DNA of 20,235 nucleotides from a virus. The position numbers and the translations under genes were made by a program. Shown here piece after piece: positions 5,324 to 14,898 of this stretch; position 1 is the stretch's first letter, and each line of letters starts with the position of its first letter. The notes under the pieces were generated by a model, which did not search any database, was not told where the DNA came from, and worked only from the letters and a program-made list of their open reading frames with translations. The stretch is taken from positions 1 through 20,235 of the IMG/VR virus record IMGVR_UViG_3300042549_001462, one strand, 5' to 3'.

Positions 5324-7561
5324 TTATCCAATTCTATTTCGTGTTTTTTCTGCTCTTTGTAATGCTAAAATTAAATCTTGGCCCCTAACTACAAATTCCC
5401 CAGATAAATTCATGTCATTGCCTCCACCAAAATCCATCATGTTTTGTAGTTTAGATAATGGCGCAATTACTTCCGGATTCGATTTAGCACCCATGTACTC
5501 ACCCATTAATCCCATTGTAGGGCCACTAACTATACCACCTTTAGCAAATGCGCTAATTCCTGTAAATGCACCCTGTACCACTCCCATTGCAGCTGCAATA
5601 AATGGCGCTAATGCTACTAAACCTGCCGGCCCTGCTGCTGCTGCTGCGTTTGTACCAATTGTAACTGCATTTGCTTGTGATTCTGCATATTTTGTGGCAA
5701 CTTTTTTCTTTCCAAATATAGATTCAGCTATGGCCATTGCACCCATTTGTATTAATACATTTGCCATTGCGCCTATAAATCCTTCTAATCCTGTCTTGGC
5801 TAATCCAAATGAATTTACAATGCTATTGCCTATGCTTTGAAATACTTGCTGTGTGGTATTTTTTAGCATATCCATTGACTGCATATACATATTAAATTGC
5901 TCTGATTGCAGCGCCAATTGTTCTTGAATTACAGTTGTACTTGCAGTGATTTGCTGATCCATTACTGCGAATGGTGATGCTATATTACTAACCTGCCCAT
6001 ATAATTTTTGAACTGATGTAAAAAATTCAGATTGGGTAATATCATAATTAAAAAAGCTGCGCAAAAGTTTACCAAATTCCTGACCTTTTGTTGATGTTGT
6101 AGCTAAAAATCTGTTTAAAACATTTTCTTGGCCTGATGTTACTGTCCTGCTAATTGATTGTAGATCCGAAAATATATCTTTATTAAGATCGCTAATTTTA
6201 CCACCTAATGCACTAAAATCAAATTTAGCTGCTGCGCTTTCTTCATCGCCACCCAAAACACTTAAATCTGGGCCACCACCTACATTAATACTTTGTGCCT
6301 TTTTTAATTGAGCAATTATGGCTTTATTTTCATTATATAATTTAGCCTGTTCATTTCTTGCTGCTAAAATTTGTTGTGGTGTTCTTTGCATTGGCGCAGC
6401 CGTACTCATTGTAGTTAATTGCGGCTGATTTAACATTCTTGCTTCTTGATCAAGCAATGCAATTTTTTTCTTTATAGCTTCATTAGTTGCTAAAACTACA
6501 TCAAGATTCTTTTTTTGATCTTCTGTTAATTTATTTGTTTCGCCTAATGCCTTATTATAATCATAGGCTGATTCAGCGACATATCCTAAACCTGCTATTA
6601 ATACACCTAATGCGCCTCCCTTGCCTATTGTTAAATTAAATTTACCTGCTGCACTTGTTAATAATTTAAATCCGGTTAATACTTTTGGCAAAATAGATCC
6701 TGCTAAAAATAACAATGGCCCTGTGGCAGCTGCTATTCCTGCAATGGTTAAAATAAATGTTTTTGTGGCAGGTGATAAATCACGCAAATACCCTAAAATA
6801 GAATTAAACTTTGTAATTATTTGTGTAACTGCCGGCAATATTACCGAACCAAATTGGACTCCCAATTCTTTTAATGATTCATTAAACATCCTCATTTGAT
6901 TGGCTGCACCTCCACCTGTTCTCTCAAAATCTCCTTGTGCATTGGAATTACTTTTTAAAACATATTGATATCTTAAAAGTACTTTTTCGCCTTGTGTCAT
7001 TTCAGAATACAATTTTTTAACACCATTTGCCAATGCAAATGTTTTTAAATTGTCCTCTGTCATAACAGTTCCCAATCTTTTAAGTGATTCAGTTTCACCG
7101 GTAAAAACTCCACTTAAAGCTGTTGTAACTTCTTCAATGTTCATGTTTTTAAACGATGATAAATCACCGGCTAAACCCACCATTGATGTACTTAATTTGG
7201 CTGCTTGGCTTGTAGATAATCCCATAGATGTGGCCATATCTCCAAACTGTGCTGACATATCTAATGCCGTTCCCTCTGCTATTCCAAATGATTTTAAAGA
7301 TGTTTTTGCGAATTCTTGAACTTCTTTAGATGAATCCTTAAAAGCTACATTAACTTTATTTAAAGATTCTTCAAAATCAGATGCTAATTTAATTGCTGCC
7401 CCTCCGGCTAATGCTAATGGCGCTGTCAATCGCAATGATAATGACTGACCTATGTCCTTCATTTTACTGCTAAATCCTGCTAATTTCTTTTCAGCTGATG
7501 ATAAGGCTGCCTCCAGATCTTTGGAATTGCCATTAATAAATATTTCTAATGTATTTGCCAT
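5324..7561 (-). CDS. Tail tape measure protein
   Basis: This 745-residue protein sets tail length and is the likely lead in DNA ejection. The N-terminus is characteristic of TP901-type tape measures: DLEAALSSAEKKLAGFSSKM, then PLALAGGAAIKLASDFEESL and the GVFTGETESLKRLG region. A hydrophobic stretch (about 275-310, TKTFILTIAGIAAATGPLLF) and a second one near 655-695, rich in Ala, may cross the membrane. The end, SAFAKGGIVSGPTMGLMGEY and later EVIAPLSKL, is the usual tape measure C-terminus. At about 0.15 nm per residue the tail would be roughly 110 nm, which is an inference. It follows a terminator hairpin and is separated by 2 bases from the next gene. Confidence 0.92.
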   Translation of the reverse strand: MANTLEIFINGNSKDLEAALSSAEKKLAGFSSKMKDIGQSLSLRLTAPLALAGGAAIKLASDFEESLNKVNVAFKDSSKEVQEFAKTSLKSFGIAEGTALDMSAQFGDMATSMGLSTSQAAKLSTSMVGLAGDLSSFKNMNIEEVTTALSGVFTGETESLKRLGTVMTEDNLKTFALANGVKKLYSEMTQGEKVLLRYQYVLKSNSNAQGDFERTGGGAANQMRMFNESLKELGVQFGSVILPAVTQIITKFNSILGYLRDLSPATKTFILTIAGIAAATGPLLFLAGSILPKVLTGFKLLTSAAGKFNLTIGKGGALGVLIAGLGYVAESAYDYNKALGETNKLTEDQKKNLDVVLATNEAIKKKIALLDQEARMLNQPQLTTMSTAAPMQRTPQQILAARNEQAKLYNENKAIIAQLKKAQSINVGGGPDLSVLGGDEESAAAKFDFSALGGKISDLNKDIFSDLQSISRTVTSGQENVLNRFLATTSTKGQEFGKLLRSFFNYDITQSEFFTSVQKLYGQVSNIASPFAVMDQQITASTTVIQEQLALQSEQFNMYMQSMDMLKNTTQQVFQSIGNSIVNSFGLAKTGLEGFIGAMANVLIQMGAMAIAESIFGKKKVATKYAESQANAVTIGTNAAAAAGPAGLVALAPFIAAAMGVVQGAFTGISAFAKGGIVSGPTMGLMGEYMGAKSNPEVIAPLSKLQNMMDFGGGNDMNLSGEFVVRGQDLILALQRAEKTRNRIG

Positions 7562-7574
7562 GCCTCAAAGTTAT

Positions 7575-7607
7575 AAAAAAAACCAATCCTTACTTTGATT
7601 GGCTTTT
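7575..7607 (-). terminator. Terminator hairpin between chaperone and tape measure genes
   Basis: On the minus strand CCAATC and GATTGG (plus-strand arms 7583-7588 and 7597-7602) form a 6-bp stem with an 8-base loop, followed by eight T residues (7582-7575). The stem overlaps the end of the chaperone frame. An exact TAnnTTTG box (TAACTTTG, 7573-7566) follows the T tract, only 4 bases before the tape measure ATG. Confidence 0.6.
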
Positions 7608-7892
7608 CTTGATTTGTTCCATAAATGCTTTTAATTCTTCCGGTGATGATTTCGGTGTACCCTTATTTAAATAAACATCCTGTGGCAAAGGAAATAGTTT
7701 ATCTGGTGTAATTAATTGTGATCTCTTTTTGGCTGTAGAATTGACAATCATAGTACTTTCAAATCTACTCATTTCCCAAAATAGATTCATTTTAATTGAC
7801 CAACTCTCCCCTAACAACGCATTTTCTTTCCATGTATTGCGCCAAAAATGATCTGGTAAAATACCTGCTTGACCAATGTAATAATCAAGCAT
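7590..7892 (-). CDS. T-domain frame of the tail assembly chaperone (ATG-start reading)
   Basis: Read from its first ATG this is a 100-residue protein beginning MLDYYIGQAGILPDHFW. Helices rich in aromatic residues (ENALLGESWSIKMNLFWEMSRF) and a Lys/Ser-rich end are typical of small proteins before the tape measure gene. The ATG comes 12 bases after the stop of the gpG-like gene, but the same frame is open upstream to the slippery site, so this is more likely the C-terminal part of the frameshift fusion than a free-standing gene. Independent initiation at the ATG cannot be excluded. Confidence 0.5.
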   Translation of the reverse strand: MLDYYIGQAGILPDHFWRNTWKENALLGESWSIKMNLFWEMSRFESTMIVNSTAKKRSQLITPDKLFPLPQDVYLNKGTPKSSPEELKAFMEQIKKSQSK

Positions 7893-8296
7893 GGCATCCC
7901 ACGTTAAGGGTTTATCAGCTTTGGGTTTTTTGTCGATTTAGATACGTTCCTGCGCACTCCGGCATTTAGATCATTACCCAATACCCTTGATTCCATCAAA
8001 GTATTTATAATTGTGCCTAATGCTTCTTGATCAATGTCATCCATCCAAGCACCTACAGAAAATTTATTGTAATCTATTTCATTATTAGATTCCTGATCAT
8101 AAGCAATGATACCGGCATAAACCATATCACGCATTGTGGCCATGGATAAACCGGATCCAAAGATCTTATCTACTTCGGATATTTTAAATCCTGATGCTTC
8201 CTCAAATGCTGCCCAGAAATTCATTGAAAAATGTAATGTACGGGTTTTGCCTCCCAAATCTAATTGGCAGTAACCCCTTTTTTTGTTGACTTCCAT
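7590..8296 (-). CDS. Frameshifted tail assembly chaperone, gpGT-like fusion
   Basis: A minus-1 shift at A_AAA_AAC (7931 to 7925, minus strand) lets ribosomes pass the gpG-like stop. Reading is 8296 to 7925, then from 7925 again to 7590. The fusion is 124 + 111 = 235 residues. The shifted frame has no stop between the slip site and the downstream open frame, and its junction residues PKADKPLTWDAM make a natural lead into DYYIGQAGILPDHFWRNTW, a T-domain-like start. In lambda and many siphophages a G/GT pair is made this way and chaperones the tape measure. The heptamer, frame and gene order are seen directly; shift efficiency is unknown, and I see only weak downstream RNA structure. Confidence 0.8.
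7904..8296 (-). CDS. Tail assembly chaperone, gpG-like (unshifted product)
   Basis: This 130-residue protein is the likely short tail assembly chaperone, equivalent in role to lambda gpG, that coats the tape measure protein before tube assembly. The N-terminus (CQLDLGGKTRTLHFSMNFWAAFEEASG) is a typical opening for such chaperones, followed by helices MATMRDMVYAGIIAYDQ and DDIDQEALGTIINTLM. It sits between tail tube and tape measure genes, the conserved position. Codons 122-124 form ACA AAA AAC, an in-frame A_AAA_AAC slippery site, six codons before the stop. Normal reading ends in KNPKLINP; shifted reading continues into the next frame. Confidence 0.82.
   Translation of the reverse strand: MEVNKKRGYCQLDLGGKTRTLHFSMNFWAAFEEASGFKISEVDKIFGSGLSMATMRDMVYAGIIAYDQESNNEIDYNKFSVGAWMDDIDQEALGTIINTLMESRVLGNDLNAGVRRNVSKSTKNPKLINP
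7925..7931 (-). promoter_or_regulatory. Programmed -1 frameshift slippery site A_AAA_AAC
   Basis: The minus strand reads GACAAAAAACCC; in the gpG-like frame this is ACA AAA AAC CCA, placing the heptamer in the exact phase needed for tandem slippage by one base. It is the point of transition to the gpGT-like product. Confidence 0.8.
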
Positions 8297-8372: not shown

Positions 8373-8780
8373 TTACAATACTGATTTAACAATCGCACCT
8401 GTAACGGTGATTGTACCACTGAAAGTTACAGCAGCTTCCATCTCACCTGTTTGCTCTAATGATGAAATAAATCCATCACAGGTATAAATTGAATCACCTG
8501 CCGTTGCTGTTCCAAATATCGCAGTTAATTGAGTTCTTGCAATTAACAAATCCAATAATTGCTCTGCATTATTAGCATCTGAATAATCTACCAAACCATC
8601 AAATGAAATCTCACCTGATTTTAAACCTGCAATTCCTTCCGACCAACCGGATGAATCTTTTGTTGTAGCATCAGCCACATCCAAATTAACTGATAATGTA
8701 CATGATGTGGTGTGTCCTACCACTGTGCCTTCAACCTTTAATAATAGATTGGTGCCGTTAAATACTCCTGCTGTTGCCAT
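8373..8780 (-). CDS. Major tail tube protein (paralogue B)
   Basis: This 135-residue protein likely forms the stacked rings of the tail tube. It resembles the TP901-1 family: MATAGVFNGTNLLLKVEGTVVGH, LSVNLDVADATTKDSSGW, GEISFDGLVDYSD, and a last strand with AAVTFSGTITVTGAI. It lies just before the tail assembly chaperone pair and tape measure gene, the classical position. A hairpin follows its stop, as for the capsid gene, which suits a highly expressed structural protein. I assign the main tube role to this copy because it has the standard length and position; the extended copy upstream is the less usual one. Confidence 0.82.
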   Translation of the reverse strand: MATAGVFNGTNLLLKVEGTVVGHTTSCTLSVNLDVADATTKDSSGWSEGIAGLKSGEISFDGLVDYSDANNAEQLLDLLIARTQLTAIFGTATAGDSIYTCDGFISSLEQTGEMEAAVTFSGTITVTGAIVKSVL

Positions 8781-8830: not shown

Positions 8831-9280
8831 TCACACATTTTCCCAATTAATATTTATATTTTCCCAATTCGTAAAAACTAAATTCCATGGCAATCTCGGC
8901 TCCCAATAAACACGACCATCGATCACAATATCAAGTGAATATCTGACTACTGTTTCAGTTTCTGCAATTTCTTCTACAGCTGTTACATAGCCTCCACCAA
9001 AATAAAACATTCCGGCTGTTTGGAATACCCATTTAGTGTATTTTTTAGTGATCAATAAATTGACAAATTGATCATAATTCATCTGATCGCTGTAATCCAC
9101 TAAACCTTCAACCTTCATTGTAACAGATCGTTTACCTGCTATACATTCGGCCCATCCCCCACTATTTTTATTTGTGGTACTTGGTAAATCTAAATTCATT
9201 GATAATACAGCATTGGTGCTATGGCCCAACGCTATATCATTATTATAAATTACAACATTTGATCCATTATATAATGGCAT
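8831..9280 (-). CDS. Tail tube protein paralogue A
   Basis: This protein of about 149 residues is homologous to the next gene, the likely major tail tube protein. Shared landmarks are a GSNVVIYNNDIALGHSTN-type opening, LSMNLDLPSTT, GGWAECIAG, GLVDYSD and the strand/loop order of the TP901-1 tail tube group. It carries an extra C-terminal extension of some 20 residues with repeated WEN motifs (NWENININWENV). A TTG at 9289 would add three residues, but the ATG at 9280 gives MPLYNGSNVV, matching the paralogue's opening, so I place the start there. It may be a minor tube, tip or decoration subunit, since two complete tube genes in a row are uncommon. Confidence 0.72.
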   Translation of the reverse strand: MPLYNGSNVVIYNNDIALGHSTNAVLSMNLDLPSTTNKNSGGWAECIAGKRSVTMKVEGLVDYSDQMNYDQFVNLLITKKYTKWVFQTAGMFYFGGGYVTAVEEIAETETVVRYSLDIVIDGRVYWEPRLPWNLVFTNWENININWENV

Positions 9281-9653
9281 TTTCTTCAATTGGTGGCACC
9301 GGTACCGGCTCCCATGGCAATGGTAATGTAATTACCGATGGATTTACTAAATCTTCTATTTGCTTTGCCAAATTAATGTCTAATGCCGGCACATCCAATG
9401 ATGATTCTAACCATCCACAAACAATGTCAAATGTTAGTTCTGCATAAGGTATGTAGGTATCACCTTCTTTTTGACTATATGTCTGGCATCCGTAAACATC
9501 GGCCACATATTCTTCAAATGTCGCATTTCTGCGCCAATGTACATTTACTACAAAATCTGTTTCACCTTCATAAGATGGAAAACATTGCATCTGGCTGATC
9601 ACCCATTCATAGGATAAATCTGTGGTTTTAATTTCTCTATAATTCGACATCAT
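9267..9653 (-). CDS. Unrecognised tail-region protein with PLPW-type end (about 128 aa)
   Basis: No function can be named. The body has alternating strands (EWVISQMQCFPSYEG, TDFVVNVHWRRNATFEEYVA) and a helix (LTFDIVCGWLESSLDVPALD), followed by QIEDLVNPSVITLPLPW and a Pro-rich end. Similar small proteins (I--W-I----..., NP---T--LPW) occur widely in tailed phages without known role. The frame could open at a TTG at 9656, but the next two codons are ATG; I choose the first ATG at 9653. The start overlaps the upstream gene by 17 bases and the end overlaps the first tail tube paralogue by 14, so translational coupling is likely. Confidence 0.65.
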   Translation of the reverse strand: MMSNYREIKTTDLSYEWVISQMQCFPSYEGETDFVVNVHWRRNATFEEYVADVYGCQTYSQKEGDTYIPYAELTFDIVCGWLESSLDVPALDINLAKQIEDLVNPSVITLPLPWEPVPVPPIEENAII

Positions 9654-10038
9654 CAATTGTTTCTATATCCTTAAATTTTACCCCTGTAACCCATCCATTT
9701 AAAAATGGATAAATATCTAATCCCTCTGGATTGTTTACCACAATAGGATCAAAATCAAATTCTGATAAATTCAGATCCTTACTTTGTTGGTTTAATTTCT
9801 TTAATCCATCCTTTGAAAATGAATAACTACCCTTTTCATTTAGGATCAGGTTTCCATCTTTGTCCACAGATGCTGCATCTAAACGCAATTCCTCTGCTTT
9901 TTCATTGTATTGATCCAAATAGATCTGTACTTTTTTGGCAATTAGGACTAACTTTTTTTGCCCTTTTGTCTTACCATCTTTTGCATTATTGTTTAAAAAA
10001 TGCACTAAAATGAATAATTCTGCATAACTTTTTTTCAT
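9637..10038 (-). CDS. Unrecognised tail-region protein (133 aa)
   Basis: I cannot assign this protein to a family with confidence. It has an N-terminal helical part (MKKSYAELFILVHFLNNN, then GQKKLVLIAKKVQIYLDQY), a middle hinge with the small beta phrase KDGNLILNEKGSYSFSKDGL, and an acidic C-terminus (FKDIETIDDVEL). The layout recalls DUF1617-type small phage proteins, in which helices are followed by a -DGN-- beta turn, but this is only a resemblance. It is the first gene after a candidate promoter and overlaps the next gene by 17 bases, so it is likely the first cistron of the tail tube unit. Confidence 0.65.
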   Translation of the reverse strand: MKKSYAELFILVHFLNNNAKDGKTKGQKKLVLIAKKVQIYLDQYNEKAEELRLDAASVDKDGNLILNEKGSYSFSKDGLKKLNQQSKDLNLSEFDFDPIVVNNPEGLDIYPFLNGWVTGVKFKDIETIDDVEL

Positions 10039-11004: not shown

Positions 11005-14000
11005 TTATTTAGCTTTTAATTGATCTAATTCTGCTTTTAATTCTTGAATTTGAATCTGTTGTTCTTGAATGGCTTTGAATGCTAATGTAACCATATTTGG
11101 ATAAGCTAATGAATCAGGACTTCCATCTTCTGCATATTGCACAAATTCAGTTAATCCTAATTCGTGTACTTCCTCTGCTATTAAACCAGCAAATACTTTA
11201 TCGCCATCATTATTACCTTTATAATAAACTGATCTTAATTGATTAACAATATCCAACCCTTTATCATAATCTTCAACACTATTTTTGTATTTTAATGATG
11301 ATGTGCTTCTATATATAGTACCACCAACAGTCATGTGTACATTAGCCGAATTTGCAGTTGTTGGAGTTGCTAACATTGCAACACTTCCATCAGAATTAAT
11401 TCGCATCCGTTCATAAAAAACCCCACTAACTCTTGTTAAAAAAGTTAAATCTACCCCACTTGAATCTGTTGCAATTTGTGGATTTGTTCCATCTGTTCCA
11501 ATATTTAATCCACCTGAACCTGCTCCATAAAATTTAGCAACAGGATAAGTCATTATTGAGTTTGCAGTTCCATATCCTTCTACGACTAATTTATTAGTTG
11601 TAACAGAACTTGTACCAATACCTACATTTCCTGCAAATGTTATTCTTAATTTTTCAGATCCTGATGTATAAAATGATAATGTATCCCATTGTGATGATGT
11701 TATGCCACCAATTCCAAGTACATTGGCTGTAACATTTTGCATTACTAACCATGCAGTTAAAGAAAATGTAGTATTTGCATTAAAATCACCTGCAACGTGT
11801 AATTTATATGCAGGACTTGCAGTACCTATTCCAACATTTGTTCCATTATCATAAATAATACTATTATTTACAGCTGATGTGCCTGTCCATTTAGTTAAAA
11901 AATTAGCAGTACCGGTACCGGAAATTCCTGCTGTAAATGTGGCTGTGTAATTAACTACATCTACAATATCATTTAAAACTGCACCGGTTCCTAAAACTAC
12001 TGTAGTTGAATTTGTTGCCGTATAATCTGCTGTGCTTAATCTTGCACCGTTTATAAATACATCAATTAATCCAACAGTATATCCACCAATAATTGTAAAT
12101 GTAGTCTGTCCAGATGTCGCAGTAAATGTGCTTACGTTTCTTACAGCTGATGATCCGGCACTATAATTAGGTACATTTAATGTAGATCCTACCAATGTTG
12201 CCGGCCCACTTGTACCTGTTGTAGTTAATGTGGATATTCCTGCTGCAATTGTCCATGATCGATCAGCTGTTAAATCATAGGTAGTTCCATTAATCGTTAA
12301 TGTTCTTGCATTTGTTACCGGTGTAAAACCTAAAGCCGATGTAACATTTAGACTTGTTAATGATAATGTGCCACCTAATGTTAATGATCCTGTGGTAGTT
12401 ACGGTGCCTGTCAATGTCAAACCACTAACTGTGCCTGTGCCACTTACACTTGTTACCGTTCCTGTTGTATTGGATTTATTATTAAATGTTGTCCAATCTG
12501 TACTGCTTAAATAACCATTTGTAGATCCAGATGCCTGACTAATTGAAATTACATTTGTCGTAATGCTTAATGGCCCTGTAGCGCTTGTAATTCTATTTAA
12601 ATATGCAATATCCCAATTTGTGGTGTCTGTTGTTGTTGGGATCTCAAATCCTGCTGTCAAACTAATAACCCCTGTAGTATTGGTATATGTTAAACCAAAT
12701 GCTGTTGTAGAAATTGCAGTTAATGGAATAAAACTATTTGGATTGCTTGCTAAATAATATAAATTACTATCCACCGATCCATCAGCTTTTAAAAACTCTG
12801 TTGCTATGCCACCGGTTTTCTTTATTGATGTGGCAATAATTGATCCGTTTACTTGTACTATGTTAACATTATCGTTTACATTTGTTCCAAATAACCATTT
12901 TCCATCGCTTGCTATTCTTGCACTTTCAATATCATCAGCTGTAAATATTACCGGATGTGGTGTATATGATCCAAATGTAACCCCACCATTTAAGGTACTA
13001 AATACCCCTTTGATTGAATTGTCCATGTGAGTTACCCCAATCATGGCAGCTGCTGAAATACCCTGTACAATAAAGTTTGTGGCCCCTGTATAATATGCAG
13101 GCAATTGACCTATAAAACTATTTCCAACCGAATCAATCCCACCTTTTGCAGTGGATGATCCATTGGTATAAAATTTAATCCCTTGGCCTGCCCTTGTAGC
13201 TACTATTGCAGCATCAGATGTAGTATTTGCTTGCCATGCACCCGAAACACCAAATATGGCCGTTTCTGTGCCGTTCTGCCTTGCGCTAAATGATCCACCA
13301 CCTGTTGCCCCTGTATTATCAATTATGATTTTTCCGTATGCCGTAGAATCTTTTGCATGGATCATGCTTGATGGCGATGTAACACTTAATCCTAAATTAC
13401 CTGCTGCCGTTAATCTTGCTTTTTCGCTTGTTCCAGCATATAAAGTAATAAAATCCCCTGCTACATCTGTACCTATTCTAAATTCCCCTGTCGCATTAGT
13501 TCTTTTTAATATCTGATGTGTATCAATTCGGTAACTATATGCCCCATCAATGGCTATATTACCATTTAAAACGGTTAACATATCAGCTACCCCAAATGGA
13601 TTTGGAATAATTCCAATCGTTCCACCTACAATTACATTTTCTAAATCATCAAAAATTAACGAATTTGAAATACTATTTGTGCCATCAAATCGTGGCACAT
13701 AGTTAATATCACCTAAACCAATTATCCCACCTGCATTCTCTAAAGCAGTTGCAAATAGTATGTTTCGCCATACCAAATCATCCTCATACCATTGTAATAT
13801 GTCTGTATCTGTACGATCAATAACCTGTACATCGTGCAATTCCTCTATTTCATAGCCATTATCTACCTTTACATAAATTTTACCATGTATTGCATGGGCA
13901 TAAACTACAAAACCAATAATCACTGTATGATCTGGCGCTAATGGTTTTACATTGGTAATATCACCGGCAACTAATGGTGATAAATAAAGTATATCGCCAT

Positions 14001-14898
14001 CGGCCCATGTTTCGCCTTGCAGATCACCTGTGGTGTCAATTTCATTAACTAATCCAGATGATGTTACAAATCCTTCCTGATTGTTGTTTATATTTTCAGT
14101 AACTAATCCTAATGTGCCGGCTGATGTTCCATCTGTAGTGGCTAATGCCAAATCTACTTTTAATCTTTGGCCTTGCGCCCCACTAATGTAAACAGCTTGA
14201 TAATTTTCCTCTAATAAATTGCCACCGGTTTTATTTACTACCCTTGTAACTTGTTCTTGACCTACCTGTAATGTAACATTACCACCCTTTAATCTTAAAT
14301 CAGCTGTGCCATCTGTGTTATTCCACGACATGGTGCCAACTGCTGTTGGTACTGCTGAATTTGATACATTAAATTGTACAAAATCACCTAATAAACCGTA
14401 TGTACCTAAATTTAGATTTTGTGTGGCCCCTGTGTATGGCACATAGCCTCCACCTCCACCACCACCATTGACAATGTTCCACCATATTTTATCTATGGCT
14501 GTCAAAATAGTATCGCTTGCCGTTACTGTTCCTGCTGTTGCAACAAATCCTGTTAATGTGGTGGCTAAAACTCTGGCTGTGGTAAAATATAATCGTGTTC
14601 CCTCGGCTATTGCTGTTGTGGTGGATCCTATTGGTAGATATAAAGCATTGGCAGCAGCTAATGATAAATAGGTATTTGAATCTAATGATCCATCAGCTTT
14701 TAAAAATTGTGATGATGTGCCACCTGTTACCTTATATTGTACTGCTCTTAAAAATCCATTTTGATCAATAAATACGTTTGATCCACCACCAAAACCATCT
14801 GAAATCTGCTTTTCACTTGCCGTTAATATATCATTATCTATTAATTTTAATAGCGCTTTGTAGGTATCTGCAACAAGTTTACCGGTTAATGTAGCCAT
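11005..14898 (-). CDS. Large tail fibre with C-terminal S74 chaperone domain
   Basis: This 1297-residue protein is the likely receptor-binding fibre. It is rich in Gly, Thr, Ser and Asn with repeated short beta motifs such as GTNVGIGTASPAYKLHV and GSEKLRITFAGNVGIGT. A seven-Gly hinge lies near residue 148. The phrase FLKADGS-DSN occurs twice, near residues 65 and 695. Segments like EIEELHDVQVIDRTDTDILQ (near 360) and DVFINGARLSTADYTATN (near 950) recur in phage fibres. The last ~110 residues are an S74 (endosialidase-type) intramolecular chaperone: SSLKYKNSVEDYDKG near 1200, AGLIAEEVHELG, then a coiled coil EQQIQIQELKAELDQL. In this family the chaperone trimerises the fibre and cuts itself off at the conserved Ser; here the next residue is Ser rather than the usual Asp. 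It starts 28 bases after the spanin candidate. Confidence 0.9.
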   Translation of the reverse strand: MATLTGKLVADTYKALLKLIDNDILTASEKQISDGFGGGSNVFIDQNGFLRAVQYKVTGGTSSQFLKADGSLDSNTYLSLAAANALYLPIGSTTTAIAEGTRLYFTTARVLATTLTGFVATAGTVTASDTILTAIDKIWWNIVNGGGGGGGYVPYTGATQNLNLGTYGLLGDFVQFNVSNSAVPTAVGTMSWNNTDGTADLRLKGGNVTLQVGQEQVTRVVNKTGGNLLEENYQAVYISGAQGQRLKVDLALATTDGTSAGTLGLVTENINNNQEGFVTSSGLVNEIDTTGDLQGETWADGDILYLSPLVAGDITNVKPLAPDHTVIIGFVVYAHAIHGKIYVKVDNGYEIEELHDVQVIDRTDTDILQWYEDDLVWRNILFATALENAGGIIGLGDINYVPRFDGTNSISNSLIFDDLENVIVGGTIGIIPNPFGVADMLTVLNGNIAIDGAYSYRIDTHQILKRTNATGEFRIGTDVAGDFITLYAGTSEKARLTAAGNLGLSVTSPSSMIHAKDSTAYGKIIIDNTGATGGGSFSARQNGTETAIFGVSGAWQANTTSDAAIVATRAGQGIKFYTNGSSTAKGGIDSVGNSFIGQLPAYYTGATNFIVQGISAAAMIGVTHMDNSIKGVFSTLNGGVTFGSYTPHPVIFTADDIESARIASDGKWLFGTNVNDNVNIVQVNGSIIATSIKKTGGIATEFLKADGSVDSNLYYLASNPNSFIPLTAISTTAFGLTYTNTTGVISLTAGFEIPTTTDTTNWDIAYLNRITSATGPLSITTNVISISQASGSTNGYLSSTDWTTFNNKSNTTGTVTSVSGTGTVSGLTLTGTVTTTGSLTLGGTLSLTSLNVTSALGFTPVTNARTLTINGTTYDLTADRSWTIAAGISTLTTTGTSGPATLVGSTLNVPNYSAGSSAVRNVSTFTATSGQTTFTIIGGYTVGLIDVFINGARLSTADYTATNSTTVVLGTGAVLNDIVDVVNYTATFTAGISGTGTANFLTKWTGTSAVNNSIIYDNGTNVGIGTASPAYKLHVAGDFNANTTFSLTAWLVMQNVTANVLGIGGITSSQWDTLSFYTSGSEKLRITFAGNVGIGTSSVTTNKLVVEGYGTANSIMTYPVAKFYGAGSGGLNIGTDGTNPQIATDSSGVDLTFLTRVSGVFYERMRINSDGSVAMLATPTTANSANVHMTVGGTIYRSTSSLKYKNSVEDYDKGLDIVNQLRSVYYKGNNDGDKVFAGLIAEEVHELGLTEFVQYAEDGSPDSLAYPNMVTLAFKAIQEQQIQIQELKAELDQLKAK

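Follow-up and report, generated by a model that had tools for sequence, protein, structure and literature searches.

A probable programmed −1 frameshift joining a G/GT-type tail assembly chaperone pair in an uncultured siphophage-like virus

The window analysed here is a 20,235-nucleotide stretch of viral DNA (IMG/VR record IMGVR_UViG_3300042549_001462, positions 1 to 20,235), and the locus of interest lies among tail genes that are read from the minus strand. Its features are as follows.

8373–8780, minus strand: major tail tube gene, preceding G (Phage_tail_2, E 9e-13; phrog_1407)
7904–8296, minus strand: zero-frame G gene for a putative gpG-like tail assembly chaperone of 130 aa (ATG at 8296, TAA at 7904; from the open reading frame list, phrog_2115 and AlphaFold/Foldseek)
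7925–7931, minus strand: slippery heptamer A_AAA_AAC, in the zero-frame phase
7919–7925, minus strand: slippery heptamer C_CCA_AAG, overlapping A_AAA_AAC by one base and in the same phase
7898–7910, minus strand: CCC/GGG mini-stem of 3 bp, 8 nt after C_CCA_AAG (minimum free energy folds of several relatives, consensus fold)
7856–7902, minus strand: conserved 19-bp RNA hairpin with a single bulge, located beyond the slip sites, a possible stimulator
7590–7925, minus strand: T-like extension in the −1 frame, 111 aa plus stop, whose own start is absent in many relatives
7590–8296, minus strand: predicted GT-like frameshift fusion of 235 aa, junction ...STKN/PKADKPLTW...
5324–7561, minus strand: tape measure gene, downstream of GT (phrog_1535, E 1.7e-39)

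An earlier note on this DNA had placed an in-phase A_AAA_AAC heptamer at 7931–7925 on the minus strand, close to the end of G, and this was borne out: in the zero frame (ACA AAA AAC) the first A of the heptamer is the third base of a codon, and six sense codons then precede the TAA, the codons near the end of G being ACA AAA AAC CCA AAG CTG ATA AAC CCT TAA. The −1 frame entered at 7925 reads PKADKPLTWDAMLDYYIGQ... and is free of stops to 7590, giving 111 residues, and the arithmetic of the proposed fusion holds (124 + 111 = 235 residues). The proposed gene order of tube, chaperone and tape measure also agrees with the family matches of the neighbours at 8373–8780 and 5324–7561, between which the G/GT pair sits. 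An automated annotation would present this pair as two small unknown genes, and it is the frameshift reading that supplies a function for them.

Several other genes of the window can be described in passing. Two adjoining tube-like genes on the minus strand, 8373–8780 and 8831–9289, both match phrog_1407 (major tail protein) and Phage_tail_2, and a duplication of the tube gene is possible. The minus-strand gene at 9267–9656 encodes a DUF7936 protein. Phages of Synechococcus and Flavobacterium contain distant matches to it, and some of these matches lie under genes annotated as lysozyme. A 1297-aa tail fibre-like protein is encoded at 11005–14898 on the same strand, with a weak C-terminal match to Peptidase_S74 (an intramolecular chaperone) just under the cut-off.

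The assignment of G to the tail assembly chaperones draws on both sequence and structure. G matches phrog_2115, annotated “tail protein” (E 1.1e-8), and its AlphaFold model (pLDDT 78.9) was matched by Foldseek to several annotated viral tail assembly chaperones, the best at an E-value of about 4e-4. When the model was compared with solved structures by VIA-align, the HK97 tail assembly chaperone (2OB9) and ORF12 of phage p2 (3D8L) were among the top three, with 5–8% identity and Z scores of 2.7–3.0, which lie below a firm fold assignment. The GTA gp10-like families show a weak likeness to both parts of the fusion, G to Phage_TAC_11 (12.4 of 27.8 bits) and the extension to Phage_TAC_6 (13.6 of 23.4 bits), a weak likeness shared by 9 of 16 members; these Pfam matches all fall below the gathering scores, short of the curated cut-offs. 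The extension is predicted to be mostly helical. A sequence-profile search of solved structures gave chance-level matches only, Foldseek against the PDB gave no match below E 0.001, and nucleotide and tblastn searches of isolated phages with G gave no match.

Support for a frameshift comes from relatives in uncultured virus collections, which are numbered here with the letter L. An IMG/VR scan gathered 66 relatives of G at 55–100% identity. In all 66 an in-phase heptamer precedes the stop codon of G by 2–6 codons, and the downstream domain is encoded in the −1 frame. The heptamer is A_AAA_AAC in L001–L050 and A_AAA_AAA in L051–L066, and wider scans reach relatives with C_CCA_AAG, G_GGA_AAG, A_AAA_AAG and mixtures of these. 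In the unfiltered listings, every relative that could be read has the downstream domain in the −1 frame, and none has it in the zero or +1 frame. A set of 149 distinct loci was drawn up under the filter that the −1 frame be open, and AAA is the second triplet of an in-phase heptamer in 148 of them. After thinning at 85% identity the in-phase heptamer is present in 55 of 56 (98%), compared with 21% and 16% for the other two phases and 4–5% for upstream stretches of G. The slip sequences turn over (G_GGA_AAG, A_AAA_AAG, A_AAA_AAA, C_CCA_AAG, A_AAA_AAC) with function and phase held constant, and synonymous divergence is lowest near the slip site, at about 0.3–0.35 of expectation versus 0.75 overall. 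In one locus, L355, the overlap is devoid of any X_XXY_YYZ heptamer. L314 is counted among those with a heptamer, but the one it has, TTTAAAC, is 15 codons upstream, and another signal may be used there. L355 and L314 share a GCA AAG context, where a tetramer may be used.

A programmed −1 frameshift is supported by what the relatives show, a slippery heptamer in phase and an open −1 frame. The earlier note had named relatives lacking the heptamer as a finding that would refute its reading; some do lack A_AAA_AAC, but they shift to the identical frame by way of another slippery heptamer, and this speaks for the mechanism. The relatives also refute the idea that the two frames result from a sequencing or assembly error or from a decaying gene, a reading for which no favourable points were found: the same arrangement recurs at 149 distinct loci from many metagenomes, and its probability is negligible. 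The family of uncultured phages that shares the frameshift arrangement is large and mostly unannotated, and one scan alone confirmed at least 583 related stretches.

A plainer explanation would be two separate small genes, the second beginning at its own start codon, and the window does contain a 100-aa open reading frame within the extension that starts with ATG at 7892. A stop closes the −1 frame 4–19 codons ahead of the slip site. The ATG at 7892 is not conserved, however, as it is missing in L030, in L047–L050 and in the whole A_AAA_AAA group, and conservation of the protein begins upstream of it (LTWD). In the A_AAA_AAA group a search for ATG, GTG or TTG found none before codon 55 of the extension, yet the block LTWDDLLDYYIGQ...NTWNEN (LTWD..YYIGQ..NTW) is strongly conserved. 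Separate initiation therefore fails for the conserved block in this group, where, judging from the sequences, the block is expressible only by a frame change or from a non-standard start. Separate genes would also leave unexplained the phase-specific heptamers of 55 of the 56 lineages, and this alternative, largely refuted by comparison, is considered very improbable.

A frame change could also arise before translation, if the polymerase were to add or drop an A within a run. Runs of nine or more A are able to cause transcriptional slippage, and such runs are carried by L051, L300 and similar groups. The run in the window, however, is of six A, the lineages with G_GGA_AAG and C_CCA_AAG have no long run, and what is conserved is the phase of the heptamer together with downstream RNA structure, so that transcriptional slippage is judged even less probable than two separate genes.

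With ribosomal frameshifting as the preferred reading, the next question concerns which sequence slips. The bare AAAAAAC heptamer is common by chance in this AT-rich window (11 found versus 11.2 expected), and the case therefore rests on phase, place and conservation. The first A of A_AAA_AAC comes from a Thr codon. In 63 distinct relatives, picked solely by the encoded peptide and the downstream context, this codon is ACA in 60, and the preceding Ser codon takes all four TCN forms, so that A_AAA_AAC seems to be under selection. The earlier note had thus been right about the phase and position of this heptamer, but in treating it as a single site it missed the overlapping in-phase C_CCA_AAG at 7925–7919. 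Both heptamers shift to the same frame, and slippage at either would yield the peptide STKNPKAD.

That A_AAA_AAC alone is functional would fit the retention of its completing A in the 60 relatives and its use elsewhere, since it is a proven insertion-sequence frameshift site (PMC4066793) and the g-t site of the archaeal virus HCTV-2 (PMC5009743). Against this, the shift from AAC to AAA is poorly tolerated by bacterial ribosomes, as found in E. coli (PMC4066793; also PMC5009743), and the highest efficiency among the heptamers measured in that species belongs to C_CC.A_AA.G, at 54% with the IS3 pseudoknot (PMC4066793). Furthermore, A_AAA_AAC has been lost, with C_CCA_AAG retained as the sole perfect heptamer, in L087/L088 (ACT AAA AGC CCA AAG TAG), L109 (ACC AAA AAC) and L292, which are placed apart in the tree as three lineages. 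The opposite loss is seen in the L110/L293 lineage, which has an A run in place of C_CCA_AAG. A single functional A_AAA_AAC is thus unlikely. The rank of C_CCA_AAG in E. coli and its survival in the three lineages lead us to infer that slippage probably occurs mainly there, that A_AAA_AAC plays an accessory part, and that either site can serve. Between the two, A_AAC_CCA also has the formal phase of a slip site, but it was rejected as one because AAACCCA is among three motifs that were below threshold in E. coli (PMC4066793).

The overlapping double slip site is the one unusual trait of the G/GT system of the window. A parallel double tract, A AAA AAG GGA AAG, lies directly before the stop codon in L120, L127, L297 and L326. 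It is tentatively suggested, at somewhat short of even odds, that the composite tract A AAA AAC CCA AAG sets the G:GT ratio by offering two successive chances to slip, together with an unusually distal hairpin.

The earlier note had judged the downstream RNA structure to be weak, and here it was mistaken. The folding energy of the 101 nt that follow A_AAA_AAC is −29.5 kcal/mol (z −3.37, with none of 200 shuffles as stable), and the 19-bp hairpin at 7902–7856 surpasses both shuffled and synonymous-codon nulls. Across clade representatives the alignment mean for the hairpin region is about −16.3 kcal/mol versus −10.6 with random synonymous codons, a comparison in which the sequences are related and do not count as independent tests, and the region is a clear outlier along the extension (about −5.8, versus −2.4 to +1.9 elsewhere). 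Covariation is modest, with one pair showing double changes and 83% of cells paired versus 81.7% when shuffled; the best covarying column pair takes five pair types. RNAalifold finds little consensus in the region, although better results come from folding sequences singly and from the named structure. Over 55 lineages the mean z against synonymous nulls is −1.58 for the 60 nt that directly follow the site, and about 0 for later stretches.

The placement of this structure differs between groups. For IS3-type sites a stimulator hairpin is expected 4–10 nt after the motif (PMC4066793), and most G_GGA_AAG relatives fit this rule, the first helix starting 5–6 nt after the motif in 22 of 30 lineages, as in known cassettes. 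In the clade of the window, by contrast, 16 nt separate C_CCA_AAG from the start of the large hairpin, and only the 3-bp CCC/GGG stem lies at 8 nt. At such a spacing, beyond the 4–10 nt rule, the large hairpin is no more than a possible frameshift stimulator; in structural terms, the mini-stem is an alternative that could stack on it.

The earlier note had spoken of a Bacteroidota host, which none of the tools used here showed. Twenty of the 24 gene starts in the window have no Shine-Dalgarno core and lie behind AT-rich leaders, and the GC content is 34%; such a weak Shine-Dalgarno signal would fit, and does not prove, a host among the Bacteroidota. A first scan of genomes for relatives found none. 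A profile scan of genomes gave three MAG contigs, but the bins that hold them belong to unrelated taxa, and no host inference is therefore drawn from them.

Taken together, these observations favour, with a probability of about 0.93, a programmed −1 frameshift that joins a G/GT-type tail assembly chaperone pair in an uncultured siphophage-like virus. On comparative evidence the G/GT frameshift appears established, and from the sequences we infer slippage, its rate, the dominant heptamer, the role of the hairpin and the function in assembly. Most ribosomes would translate G and terminate at 7904, and a minority would pause on A AAA AAC CCA AAG. The paused ribosomes would slip back by one base, most likely at C_CCA_AAG, A_AAA_AAC offering a second chance, and would continue in the −1 frame as far as 7590 to make the 235-aa fusion. 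If the parts act as in lambda, G would coat the tape measure protein, and the tube protein would be recruited by the C-terminal extension. The natural replacement of slip sites, with protein and frame constant, offers a data set on the evolution of bacterial frameshift signals that covers overlapping double heptamers and hairpin spacing, in hosts that probably make little use of Shine-Dalgarno sequences.

The production of two versions of a tail helper from one message by a −1 slip is a well-known phage trick and is the mechanism of lambda G/GT. The lambda pair likewise sits between the genes for tube and tape measure, with a −1 slip towards the 3' end of G, and its C-terminal extension too has no start of its own, here a feature of the relatives, as the window itself has the ATG at 7892. 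The lambda heptamer, G_GGA_AAG, is identical to that of many distant relatives, and the lambda G:GT ratio is given as 30:1 in PMC5009743. The clade of the window differs from lambda in its overlapping A_AAA_AAC and C_CCA_AAG and in its distal hairpin. As its g-t frameshift site the haloarchaeal virus HCTV-2 has the identical heptamer A_AAA_AAC (PMC5009743), for which the passage concerned names no overlap with C_CCA_AAG; the gene pair has the same function, in this case in a virus of archaea.
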